The notes beneath the pieces are model-generated. The model saw only the letters and a program-made list of their open reading frames with translations. It made no database searches and was not told where the DNA came from. Below, one piece after another: positions 887 through 4,498 of a DNA stretch of 64,000 nucleotides. Within the stretch, counting starts at the first letter, position 1. Every line of letters begins with the position of its first letter. The position numbers and the translations under genes were made by a program. The DNA is taken from NCBI RefSeq assembly GCF_001417775.1, contig NZ_BBZJ01000023.1, positions 62,001-126,000 of the forward strand, in the 5' to 3' direction. The stretch comes from Streptomyces sp. TP-A0356. GTDB taxonomy: Bacteria > Actinomycetota > Actinomycetes > Streptomycetales > Streptomycetaceae.

Positions 887-1396
887 TCAAGCTGCAGCCC
901 TCGCGTCTCGGAACTCACACCACGTCTCCTCGCCGTTGCTCTCCCATGCGTCTGAGATCGCATCGACCAGCCGGATCCCGCGCCCCGATTCGCCGTCGGG
1001 TCCGGCTTCCTTGAGCACAGCGGGCGCCGGGTTGTGGTCGGTTACCGAGACACGCACCACGTCGACGGCCACCGTGATGTGGAGCACGACTTCGCCCTCA
1101 CCGTGGACCACGGCGTTGGTGACCAGCTCCGAAACGGCCAGTACGACGAACCCCGCCACCGGCTCCGAAACACGGCACCGCCGCAGGAACGCCCTGGCTA
1201 TGCGCCGCATCTCCCCGACCTTCGCAAGGTCGGGGAGAAGGGCCGCCTGACAGGCATGGGATGCCGCCGGTACCTCTGCCCTCGCCCATGCGCCGGCCTC
1301 GTCTTCCTGAACCGGCCTGACGCATGACGCGCCTGCTGTAGCCGCACAGCTGCGGATGCCCCCGCCGGGCGGGGCCGCCTCTTGGAGCCTGGTCAT
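887..1396 (-). CDS. RsbW-like ATP-binding protein (HATPase_c_2)
   Basis: 169 aa. Residues from about 50 on form a GHKL-type ATPase as in anti-sigma kinases: the N box reads AVSELVTNAVVHG, followed by VRVSVTDHNPAP (the D of the DxG region) and SGRGIRLVDAISDAW (glycine-rich lid). Streptomyces carry dozens of such orphan regulators, which bind ATP and usually pair with anti-sigma antagonists or XRE/DUF397 genes. No partner sits next to this one. The first ~45 residues are low complexity (PPGGG, Cys/Ala-rich), and no clear Shine-Dalgarno precedes the ATG at 1396, so the true start may be further in. It lies 90 bp from the IS110 element. Confidence 0.7.
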   Translation of the reverse strand: MTRLQEAAPPGGGIRSCAATAGASCVRPVQEDEAGAWARAEVPAASHACQAALLPDLAKVGEMRRIARAFLRRCRVSEPVAGFVVLAVSELVTNAVVHGEGEVVLHITVAVDVVRVSVTDHNPAPAVLKEAGPDGESGRGIRLVDAISDAWESNGEETWCEFRDARAAA

Positions 1397-1484
1397 GTGG
1401 GCTATGGCACCGTGCGGCGACGCCGTCGACCAGGGGAATCCAGAGGGGGAAAATCATGTCAAGACATCTCAGGGGGCTTAGAAG

Positions 1485-2726
1485 TCAAGCTGCCTGCTCG
1501 GCCGGGGGTGACAGGAGCGGTGCGAAGGCCTGCTGTTCGTCGAAGAGCTGCCGGGCCTTGAGACAGTGATGGAGCTGGCCGAGGAAGCGGTTCAGCAAGT
1601 GCCGTTGTGCGGCGGCGTGCCAGTCGCCATGCTCGCGTCGGCGCCGGTAGTGCGCGTTTGCTCCTGGTGAGGCGGTGAGGGCGGCGAAGGCCCAGAGGAA
1701 GCCGGCGTTGATGAGGCGGTTGTTCTTGACGAAGCGGCGGCCGACGAAGCGCTTCTTGCCAGAGGCCCGGGTGATGGGCGCGGATCCGGCGTATGACTTC
1801 AGTGCCCGGGCGTCGGTGAACCGTGCCCGGTCATCGCCCAGCTCGGCGAGGACGCGGGCGCCGAGCATGGGCCCAAGGCCCGGGAAGCTGAGCAGGATCT
1901 CGCTGTCGGCGTGCTGGTGAAAGGCGGCTGTGGCTGCCTCCGCGAGGTCGTCCGCGGCCTGGCAGGCGGCGTCCAGCTGCTTGAGCAGAGCCAGGAGCTG
2001 GTGGCCGAAGGCATCCTCGACGCTGGGGAGCTGGTGGGCGTACTCGGCGCGGAAGACGGCCCGTAGCCGCTCGGCTTCCGCGTCGCAGCCGCGGAGGCGG
2101 CCACTGCGTTTGAGGGCGGCCCTCAACTGGGCGAGGGTGAGCTTCGCGGCCTTGGCCGGGGTCGGGGCCAGAGTGAGGATGACACGGGAATCAGCCCTGG
2201 TCAGACCGCTCTGCTTGGCCTGGAAGGCCAGCAGAGCAGCAGGGTAGTACTCGCGCAGGAGCGAGCGGACCTGGTTGGCGACCTGCTGCCGAGTCCAGAC
2301 GGCGTCCTGCTGGGCTCGGGCCAGGACAGTGATGGCCTGGGCGAGTTCGGAGTCCGCCGGCAGGGGCCGGTGGGCGTGCATGTCAGTGCGCAGGATGTTC
2401 GCGAGGACCAGGGCGTCGCCGGGGTCGGACTTCTTGCGGCTGACGCCGTGGCGGTCGCGGTAGCGGGCGGCCGCGAGCGGGTTGATCGCGAAGACCCGAC
2501 GGCTGCCGGTGCGCAGGCTCGCAACCAGGAGGCCGTGGCTGGTCTCGATGGCCACCGGTATCGGATCGTCTGGGCTGTCACCGTGTTCGGCCAAGAGGGC
2601 CAAGAGCTTGTGGTAGCCGGCCGCGTCGTCGGTGATATGGGCTTTGGCGAGCAAAGTGCCGGCTTCGTCGACGAGGGCAACGTCGTGGTGTCGCTCCGCC
2701 CAGTCGATGCCGCAGAACACGGTCAA
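1485..2726 (-). mobile_element. IS110-family transposase (DEDD recombinase)
   Basis: Coding sequence of an IS110-family insertion sequence, about 413 aa. The N-terminal RuvC-like DEDD domain shows CGIDWAERHHDVAL (first Asp), VAIETSHG (Glu) and KKSDPGDALVLANILRTD (last Asp pair). The C-terminal Transposase_20 domain shows FPGLGPMLGARVLAELGD, then LKSYAGSAPITRASGKKR, which carries the family's conserved serine. I start it at TTG 2726, because GGGAGGA lies five bases upstream and the conserved domain begins at once. An open frame continues to 2768 without support, and GTG 2720 is an alternative. No frameshift or stop is visible, so it may be active. IS110 elements lack inverted terminal repeats, so the outer ends are not certain. 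The non-coding flank at 2727-3110 is treated separately. Confidence 0.9.
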
Positions 2727-3110
2727 GCTGTCCTCCCAGATCTGTCCGTTTATGCAGGTCACGAGCACATGCGGGTCGCGCGGCGCCCTAATCCAAGGAC
2801 TCGTTGGTCCGCCATCTCAGTAGCCGTTCGCAACACCAGCGCGCTCCAGGGGCTCGATCTTCTGCAGAGCTCGCTGGCTCGCGGATGAACAAGAGGTCGA
2901 CCCTGGAGCGGGCTCGCGCCGTGACGATCAACGTCCGAGCGGTCCCCGCGAGTTTCGCGGTGATCACGGAGGCGCCGGGCTGCGCCGCTCTTGACAGAGG
3001 CCTCAAGGGCCCGGGGAAACGGAGGCATCAGCCCGGCGCCCGCGTCATCACCGCGAACCCCGCAACGGACAGCGATGCCGCTCTTTGAGGAGGCCTTGAT
3101 GGCCAGGGGG
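2727..3110 (-). ncRNA. candidate IS110 left end with guide (bridge) RNA
   Basis: The 5' flank of the transposase has no plausible gene but holds two strong inverted repeats. The first has 10-bp perfect arms (CGCTCCAGGG at 2842-2851, complement at 2901-2910). The second is long and imperfect (2952-2982 with 3029-3058, about 27 of 30 positions pairing). A 33-bp imperfect direct repeat (2984-3016 and 3077-3109, both beginning GCCGCTCTT) overlaps the outer part. In IS110-group elements the region upstream of the recombinase encodes a structured guide RNA with two stem-internal-loop domains for target and donor DNA. Two separate stem-loops at the right position, strand and length fit that. The function and exact ends are inference. 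Confidence 0.35.
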
Positions 3111-3220
3111 GATCCAGGCATTCGCTGTCCTGCGCGAGCAGCTGCCCGGGTCGTTGCACGGGCCCGGGCCGTCTGCTTCCGCACTGGATTAGGGGGAAAC
3201 TGAAGGGGGGAATTGAGGCC

Positions 3221-4498
3221 ATGATTGGATTCCGCCCACCGACAGAGGTCACACTCATGCCAGACCCGTTCGCCGACCTGCTCCTCCGGCTTCGGCAGGA
3301 GGCGGGCCGGACACAGGAGGAGCAGGCGGAGGCGATCAACGCTGTCTCCGGCCGGGACACCATGACCCGCCGAGAGATCAGCCGTTATGAGAACTTCGAG
3401 AACATTCCTACCAACCACACAATCGGCCACATCGCGGCGGCCTGCGGTGTCCCCTTCGAGGAACTACAGCGAGAGGCCAAGGCCGCCCGCGCTCGGAAGA
3501 GAAAGGGGCATGCCGATGCAGGGGAGGACCAAGACGCCGTGAAGCGTCGCACGCTCCTGGGTAGCGCCACTATCGGCGTGAGCGTGGCCGCCGAGCCGTG
3601 GGGGCGCCTCGCCTTCGCCCTCAGCAAGGGGAACAAGATCGATTCGCCCGCTGCCGCCGCGCTCATCGACCGAGCCGCTGAACTGCACGTCCAGGAACTC
3701 AACCTCAGCGCGCGGCGGCTACAAAAAACGGTCGAGTCGCATCTTGACGCGATCACTGCGGCCCTGCCTCGTGCAGGCGAACACGAAGGCGCTCTCACCA
3801 TCGCCGCCGGGGAAACCGCCGCTCTGGCCGGTTGGGTGGCCTGGGACCTGGGGGAGCACGACAAAGCCAACGCCTACTACAAGGTCACGTCGCAGTGCGC
3901 GGCGGCTGCCGGGCATCCTCCACTCCGAGCCCTGGCCCTGACCTACAGCAGCTACGGCGCTTTGACGCCAAAGGCGAAGATGGAGTTCCTCTCCCAAGCC
4001 GCCAACGACGTGCGAGGCCACGGTAACGCTACTGCTGCCGCCTGGGTTCTCGGTAGGCACGCGGAAGAAGCTGCGGCGGCCGGCGACGAGGTGGGGGCGC
4101 TCCAGGCGTTAGACCGAGCGCGCTTCGCCTACGATTTCGCGGACCACACCAGCGAGCAGGCATGGGTCAGGTTCGTGACCCCATACCGCATGGACTCGTT
4201 GGCCCTGTCCGTGTACGGCCAGCTGAGGCGCCCCGAGCTCACGTCCACAGCTGATACCGCGGTCGACCGCCTCGGAGACGGGCTACCGGACGGGGGCGTC
4301 GTAGTCCTCGGTGATCTGGCGTCGGCCCTACTGCGTGGGGGTGACGTCGACCAAGGCGTCTACGTGGCCCGCCAGTTCGCTGCGGCGGCACAGGCCAAGC
4401 CCAACACCATGGGCAAGGAGCGGGCGGCGGCTATTGCAGCGTTGCTTCCTGACAGCGAACACGAATTTGCCGTTTATTTCCGGCGGTTCACATCCTGA
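3221..4498 (+). CDS. XRE-family regulator with TPR-like sensor domain
   Basis: 425 aa. Residues ~13-75 form an HTH of the XRE type (DLLLRLRQEAGRTQEEQAEAINA ... MTRREISRYEN ... IPTNHTIGHIAAACGVPFEEL). A basic stretch AKAARARKRKG follows, then a KRRTLLGSA segment as seen after the HTH in related Streptomyces regulators, and a long alpha-helical TPR-like C-terminal half that probably senses a ligand or partner. Start: ATG 3221 has AGGGGGG upstream. ATG 3257 (MPDPFADLL) is an alternative with GAGG and gives a more family-like N-terminus. It stands alone beside the IS110 end. Its target is unknown. Confidence 0.8.
   Translation: MIGFRPPTEVTLMPDPFADLLLRLRQEAGRTQEEQAEAINAVSGRDTMTRREISRYENFENIPTNHTIGHIAAACGVPFEELQREAKAARARKRKGHADAGEDQDAVKRRTLLGSATIGVSVAAEPWGRLAFALSKGNKIDSPAAAALIDRAAELHVQELNLSARRLQKTVESHLDAITAALPRAGEHEGALTIAAGETAALAGWVAWDLGEHDKANAYYKVTSQCAAAAGHPPLRALALTYSSYGALTPKAKMEFLSQAANDVRGHGNATAAAWVLGRHAEEAAAAGDEVGALQALDRARFAYDFADHTSEQAWVRFVTPYRMDSLALSVYGQLRRPELTSTADTAVDRLGDGLPDGGVVVLGDLASALLRGGDVDQGVYVARQFAAAAQAKPNTMGKERAAAIAALLPDSEHEFAVYFRRFTS

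Follow-up and report, generated by a model that had tools for sequence, protein, structure and literature searches.

The left end of an IS110-family insertion sequence in Streptomyces sp. TP-A0356 very probably specifies a bridge RNA in which two alternative target-binding loops share a single donor-binding loop. The element is of the same kind as IS117, the Streptomyces coelicolor minicircle, and lies in a 64-kb stretch of contig NZ_BBZJ01000023.1, referred to here as the window. Comparison with its relatives makes it likely, at a somewhat lower level of confidence, that it represents a natural multiplexed bridge RNA, in which one donor loop serves one to four interchangeable target loops that are gained, lost, and exchanged as hairpin cassettes, giving one lineage a portfolio of unrelated addresses. 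Bridge RNAs are under development as programmable recombination tools. To judge by the literature searched, such a guide array would be new for IS110 bridge-RNA systems.

Read in the orientation of the recombinase gene, the left end contains a 5′ hairpin, target loop B, target loop A, a conserved hairpin, the donor loop, and then the gene (Table 1). What first pointed to two target loops was a direct repeat of 45 nt (2984-3028 and 3077-3121, 71% identity), whose copies differ in their loop bases exactly where the guides are expected; an earlier note on this DNA had proposed a bridge RNA with a single target-pairing loop, a number that has to be corrected to two. A covariance model built from 62 target loops gives 169 matches in 85 sources (596 kb) at E ≤ 0.05, exactly two of which lie in the window, and at E ≤ 0.001 these two are the sole matches in the window's own 8.4-Mb genome. 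The two strong stem-loops described in the earlier note are both present, with arms 2948-2982/3029-3063 (35 nt, 86% complementary) and 2838-2866/2886-2914 (29 nt, 72% complementary, including the short perfect arm), and both fold better than dinucleotide shuffles (2944-3067: z = -6.84, 0/200 as low; 2824-2930: z = -3.06, 1/200 as low). Comparison with shuffles gave similar results for a further guide hairpin at 3060-3138 (z = -3.50, 1/200 as low) and for the whole region 2780-3182 (z = -5.07, 0/100 as low). The range first assigned to the RNA, 2727-3110, does hold the donor loop, which the earlier note had missed; it is too short at the 5′ side, where the element continues to 3190 and the further guide hairpin is found. 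Nowhere in the window does an Rfam family reach its gathering score.

The ends of the element, which include the whole of that range, were established from uninterrupted sites. When the window flanks are joined, they are identical to the empty site L119 at 1070/1071 positions with no gap at the junction, and they match further uninterrupted sites at 98.7% (L120), 97.2% (L121), and about 90% (L122 and L124); in the alignments with L119 and L120, the junction sequence CAGTTTCCCC-CT-TGACATG is gapless. Because the joined flanks occur uninterrupted in other genomes, the element is taken to be 1464-3190 plus one CT core, and comparison with L119 shows insertion at this short core without further target duplication. 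Five near copies (L009, L010, which is the same as L097, L011, L012, and L095), with 90.7-93.8% DNA identity to the window, align with it only from 3196/3198 to 1460/1461, and their outer sequences differ. In other near copies the alignment ends earlier on the right, in several of them because other genes precede their right end. The sequence AGGGGGAAA, present at both ends (near 1443 and 3191), was considered as a duplicated target and rejected, the true right end being 1464.

Table 1. Features of the IS110 element and its predicted bridge RNA, in window coordinates.
Feature	Position	Strand	Description	Basis
IS110 element without cores	1464..3190	-	1727 bp; 1729 bp with one CT core	empty site
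Left CT core	3191..3192	-	left target TTCAGTTTCCCC at 3193-3204	near copies and empty site
Right CT core	1462..1463	-	right target TGACA starts at 1461	near copies and empty site
-35-like TTGACT in right end	1483..1488	-		junction pattern in relatives
IS110 recombinase open reading frame	1485..2768	-	427 aa, counted from first GTG; conserved from about 2714	
Target-binding loop B (first, 5′)	3067..3129	-	not the loop fitting the window insertion	covariance-model match, 47.0 bits
Left target guide B	3107..3115	-	GGATCCCCC, then CT	fits targets of sister copies
Right target guide B	3083..3089	-	CTCAAAG, pairs with CT-TTGAG	guide-target comparison
Target-binding loop A (second)	2970..3040	-	fits the window insertion, 13/14	covariance-model match, 72.9 bits
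Left target guide A	3013..3021	-	CGTTTCCCC	guide-target comparison
Right target guide A	2990..2996	-	TGTCAAG, pairs with CT-TGACA	guide-target comparison
Conserved hairpin between target loops and donor loop	2838..2914	-	AGAYCG motif like that of the target loops	
Donor-binding loop (one)	about 2787-2820	-		covariation
Left donor guide	2813..2820	-	CTGAGATG, equal to right end 1465-1472	sequence; LD/LDG covariation in relatives
Donor-loop hairpin	2797..2810	-	GGAC/GTCC	covarying in relatives, 5/9 pairs changed on both sides
Right donor guide	2787..2795	-	TGGATTAGG, pairs with left end CTAATCCA	sequence; RD/RDG covariation in relatives

Relatives were collected by a genome scan (best 80 of 280 relatives), a genus search (392 genomes), and a family search (394 genomes), to which a plasmid search added 22 records, with ten regions taken. 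A protein search of plasmids, outside this collection, gave 906 records with a match. Scanning 103 sources left 90 elements, after removal of two without a loop match (L033 and L085), nine without a left end by motif, and two duplicates. Right ends were located by exact motifs, and a later pattern that includes the -35 box found 27 more behind passenger genes. One target loop was found in 21 of the 90 elements, two in 47, three in 19, and four in 3, counts that are lower bounds because weak loops may be missed. The left end lengthens with the number of loops, from 366-551 bases with one to 384-590, 566-671, and 685-706 bases with two, three, and four. A phylum-wide search with the target-loop model matched 2 of 396 genomes, the window's own and one of the same genus, under stricter filters, and therefore says little on the spread of arrays.

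Guide function is supported by the agreement between loops and insertion sites, which, like all the evidence here, is a matter of comparative sequence. For the best loop of each element, we scored nine left and five right target bases (maximum 14), with a good match defined as at least 11/14, or at least 7/9 on the left where the right flank is unknown. In the 74 elements with both flanks, which form 22 groups sharing loops, the best loop scores on average 11.66/14 against its own target and 6.06 (SD 1.47) against the targets of other groups, and the own target beats every other-group target in 60 elements. With one element per group, 10,000 permutations reached a mean of 6.21 (SD 0.39) and a maximum of 8.18, compared to the observed 11.77. 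The left side alone, scored in all 90 elements, gives 7.08/9 for own targets versus 4.47 for others, with a permutation maximum of 5.33. Altogether 72 of the 90 elements have a good match, including 11/21 with a single loop and 61/69 with several.

Where an element carries several loops, its left and right guides nearly always point to the same one. There are 56 such elements with both flanks, five of them tied, and the two guides independently name the same loop in 49 of the remaining 51 (exceptions L045 and L136) versus 22.7 expected, with 15 of 17 groups in complete agreement. Among the 50 well-matched multi-loop elements, the best loop averages 12.32 and the second-best 5.88, and the second never reaches 11. 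Every position of the two- and three-loop arrays is used in some element: the first 27 times and the second 15 times in arrays of two, 7, 6, and 4 times in arrays of three, while in arrays of four the first and the last are each used once. In the window, loop A agrees with the target AGTTTCCCC-CT-TGACA at 13/14 positions, and loop B does not fit it (6/9 left, 1/5 right); CT sites in the window in its present form score at most 10 for loop A and 11 for loop B. The conserved hairpin, whose arms at 2842/2901 had been put forward in the earlier note as part of the guide structure, was also tried as a target guide and rejected despite its target-loop-like shape and AGAYCG motif, as it scores 6.03 against own left targets and 6.18 against those of other groups (n = 90); the donor loop too lies elsewhere (Table 1).

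These features suggest a mechanism in which the element would leave as a circle and the left end would be transcribed from a promoter, TTGACT-N18-TCTAAT, made by its joined ends. Joining 1464-1462 to 3190-3188 forms the TCTAAT that completes this promoter-like sequence, and TTGANN-N16/19-YCTAAT, with N17/18 in the joined ends, is found at the reconstructed junction in 46/48 elements, where the -35 box and spacing are the informative part because CTAAT belongs to the left-end search motif. One recombinase dimer is predicted to bind one target loop and a second dimer the donor loop, which may belong to a different RNA copy; insertion would then take place at whichever site fits the loaded target loop. 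Loop A would have sent the window element to its present place, with an NsdA-family regulator gene on one side and a HATPase-type gene on the other, and loop B would direct it into an IS5-family transposase gene; an array of alternative loops would therefore give one element several unrelated addresses. In IS621, one complex takes its target loop from one RNA molecule and its donor loop from another, and the loops also function in vitro when supplied as separate molecules (PMC11208158); an array of several target loops with a common donor loop is therefore mechanically possible. The same IS621 results favour a version in which the array is a precursor cut into single-loop RNAs, each working with a separate donor-loop RNA, and so does the purification of 70-100 nt RNAs with transposases of this family (PMC11187229). 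We regard such cutting as possible, with the odds leaning against it, and as a refinement of the shared-donor array rather than its opposite.

A simpler proposal is that this is an ordinary bridge RNA with one working target loop and that the other is a non-functional relic of duplication; after all, any single insertion is explained by one loop, and 21 of the 90 relatives were found with only one. Near copies of the window element make this improbable. Eighteen of them carry the same two loops, and 13 are inserted at sites that fit loop B, three (the window, L010, and L092) at sites that fit loop A, and two at neither. The right guides show 0/126 changes in each loop, versus 348/7236 cells changed elsewhere in the left end. 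The two copies at neither kind of site, L017 and L141, are below threshold for both loops, and the right guide of loop B fits 5/5. Eleven of the 13 B-site copies (not L011 and L090) adjoin the second half of an IS5-family transposase at the left core, compared to none of the three A-site copies. Three unoccupied B-type sites with one mismatch are present in the window's own genome (C38:11066, C38:18595, and C46:32080), and the first of these (L138) lies in an IS5-family transposase gene, where its two overlapping frames meet. Other shared arrays are likewise found at sites fitting different loops (L018/L016; L019/L025; L066 and L070/L071). The relic proposal also sits poorly with the use of all positions of two- and three-loop arrays, and with the IS117 copies described below, which fit different loops of one array. 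The left flank of L141 resembles the right end of another copy (CTGAGATGTG-CT), which suggests a tandem insertion.

IS117 is a 2.5-kb minicircle with the donor end AGCCCCCTGAGATGT-CTA, and the sites into which it integrates fall into two distinct consensus groups (PMC2194683). Its donor end is identical to that of the window element, AGCCCCCTGAGATGT-CTA being the right end of this family, and its recombinase and left end are closely related to those in the window. The KpnI and NheI primers for chromosomal IS117 (PMC2194683) match L103 (extended as L156) exactly, at the two element ends, and the primer intseq2 matches inside this element, which measures 2529 bp core to core; we regard it as either IS117 itself or a copy occupying that site. 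It differs from the window element in having three target loops and in carrying extra genes ahead of the right end. The guides of window loop A (CCGTTTCCC and TGTCAAG) are those of its third loop. The chromosomal site of L103/L156 fits loop 2 (6/9 + 5/5), and L147, on a Streptomyces leeuwenhoekii plasmid and identical to it at 2508/2529 positions, is inserted at an unrelated site that fits loop 3 (7/9 + 5/5). A loop array could explain the two consensus groups of IS117 sites, which PMC2194683, a paper older than the discovery of bridge RNAs, reports without an array explanation in the text available.

The donor side follows the ends of the element in the same way. The donor-loop pattern is readable in part of the relatives, a part that does not include the nearest copies of the window. 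In these, the left-end base in CTAAT[C/T] agrees with its guide partner (right donor and right donor guide, RD/RDG) in 66/68 elements, the right-end GAG[A/G]TG agrees with its guide (left donor and left donor guide, LD/LDG) in 37/37, and the two bases before GAG[A/G]TG agree in 42/45 versus 13.5 expected (three of 48 not read). In the window, the donor guides match the element's own ends (Table 1). The stems are conserved through compensatory changes: in a plain MAFFT alignment of 62 target loops (A1), 14/17 pairs are changed on both sides in at least one sequence, a number matched by 9/500 shuffles, and the covariation score is reached by 0/500, with which a model-fitted alignment agrees, while in the hairpin and donor-loop region (48 sequences) 20/53 pairs are changed on both sides (0/500 shuffles). 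Covariation exceeds all 500 shuffles in three alignments, and as these shuffles ignore relatedness, the fractions are not probabilities. That the hairpins are instead protein-binding DNA structures or an mRNA leader regulating the recombinase, as their strong folding directly upstream of its gene might suggest, is very improbable, since it is contradicted by the guide-target agreement, by loop bases that track both the insertion site and the element's own ends, and by the compensated stems. The proposal of the earlier note that the region encodes the bridge RNA of an IS110 element is supported by the empty-site ends, the guide-target agreement in 74 elements, the donor covariation, the compensated stems, and the promoter-like junction. 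Both findings that the note named as refuting it, element ends leaving out the region and stems lacking conservation or covariation, turned out the other way.

Several observations weigh against a guide array. The relatives were found through the window's own recombinase or left end, and their ends were set by motifs from near copies; related sequences are also not independent, and alignment shuffles give no probability. Eighteen of the 90 elements lack a good match, 15 of them with both flanks, where the poorest fits are L072 (7) and L061, L141, and L148 (8). Among single-loop elements, 10/21 fall short of the threshold, and the nine of these with both flanks agree at 4-7/9 on the left and 3-5/5 on the right. 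When the left target alone is searched, the loop beats all other 9-mers of the left end in only 51/90 elements, with 20 ties and 19 worse (about 350 windows each). The donor loop alone folds no better than shuffles (z = -0.42, 61/200 as low). Left guide A is followed by GG rather than the CT core, which in IS621 is included in every guide pairing (PMC11208160). The -10 box of the circle junction is partly built in by the search motif, as noted above. Finally, three of the six IS117 primers (IS117-F, intseq1, and attM5′1) were not found at L103/L156; these may lie in the vector.

The recombinase places the element in the IS110 group. In line with the earlier note, which called it intact, the reading frame is open over its whole length and matches NF033542 at 188.9 bits (cut-off 140), with the domains PF01548 (DEDD, RuvC-like, 123.4 bits) and PF02371 (Transposase_20, 54.0 bits). 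The left end measures 463 bases to the first conserved recombinase residue and contains the guides, and the right end runs 21 bases past the stop codon, which is the IS110-group layout of a long left end upstream of the gene with a bridge RNA and a short right end. With only 21 element bases past the stop codon, it lacks the IS1111-group trait of an RNA downstream of the gene. A match to TIGR_Tas_endo (30.9 bits) is below the cut-off of 100, so the recombinase does not classify as a Tas protein, and a sequence search of solved structures with the recombinase found no IS110 relative. The element is an IS110-group element with a bridge RNA, and the rule of one target loop and one donor loop fails, with two target loops in the window and at least two in 69/90 elements.

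Among the closest known systems, IS621 shares the recombinase family, an RNA encoded in the left end ahead of the gene, left and right target and donor guides, a CT core, and, putatively, a circle-junction promoter (PMC11208160; PMC11208158). The IS621 RNA is described as 177 nt long, with a 5′ stem-loop followed by a single target loop and a single donor loop (PMC11208160), whereas the window element has two target loops (one to four in relatives), a further conserved hairpin ahead of the donor loop, and a 463-base left end. The seekRNAs of the IS1111 group share a DEDD transposase and RNA-guided target choice, and are reported downstream of the gene rather than upstream (PMC11187229). TIGR-Tas systems likewise have guide units in tandem and a protein that binds RNA and is related to the RNA-binding domain of IS110, but use 36-nt tigRNAs that direct DNA binding or cutting, and the paper describing them contrasts their arrays with IS110 bridge RNAs, described as a single two-stem unit (PMC12045711). 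In the accessible text of the literature searched, which included no preprints and few subscription journals, no bridge RNA with more than one target loop is reported, which is weak evidence of absence. A natural array, if true, would show target loops to be separable cassettes, would suggest multi-site tools from one transcript, and would be a functional parallel to TIGR and CRISPR arrays.

The arrays also differ among relatives in a manner consistent with exchange. Single-linkage clustering sorts the 184 loops into 81 types, and the arrays they form are of 53 distinct kinds. Of the types, 21 recur in several arrays, and one (guides like GTAAGGCCC/CCGATAG) takes the second place in one array and the first in another. 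In a tree built from 84 recombinases, with six short or broken sequences left out and a single very long branch (L117), 20 changes in array size are required, compared to a shuffled mean of 37. The unchanged right guides of near copies, together with the loop types common to several arrays, suggest that selection maintains the loops and that they move as cassettes. Inside the left end of L065 (at -544 and -472 relative to the gene) and of L039 (at -671 and -574) there is a second left-end head (CTAATYC...), which lies at a GC|CT like that before the target guides and is possibly a trace of array rearrangement.

Many relatives carry passenger genes between the recombinase and the right end, and 31 of 74 measured elements exceed 1850 bp. 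By annotation, examples include a SAM-methyltransferase (L143), a GNAT acetyltransferase (L146), and a DinB-family gene (L147, of the IS117 kind). In the window, the element is flanked next to its left end by the NsdA-family regulator gene (3221-4498, plus strand; NF053720) and on the other side by a HATPase_c_2 gene (887-1396, minus strand). The loop A target (window 1457-1462 and 3193-3204) holds TTGACA, which resembles a -35 box and lies between two divergent genes, so that a promoter may be disturbed by the insertion.
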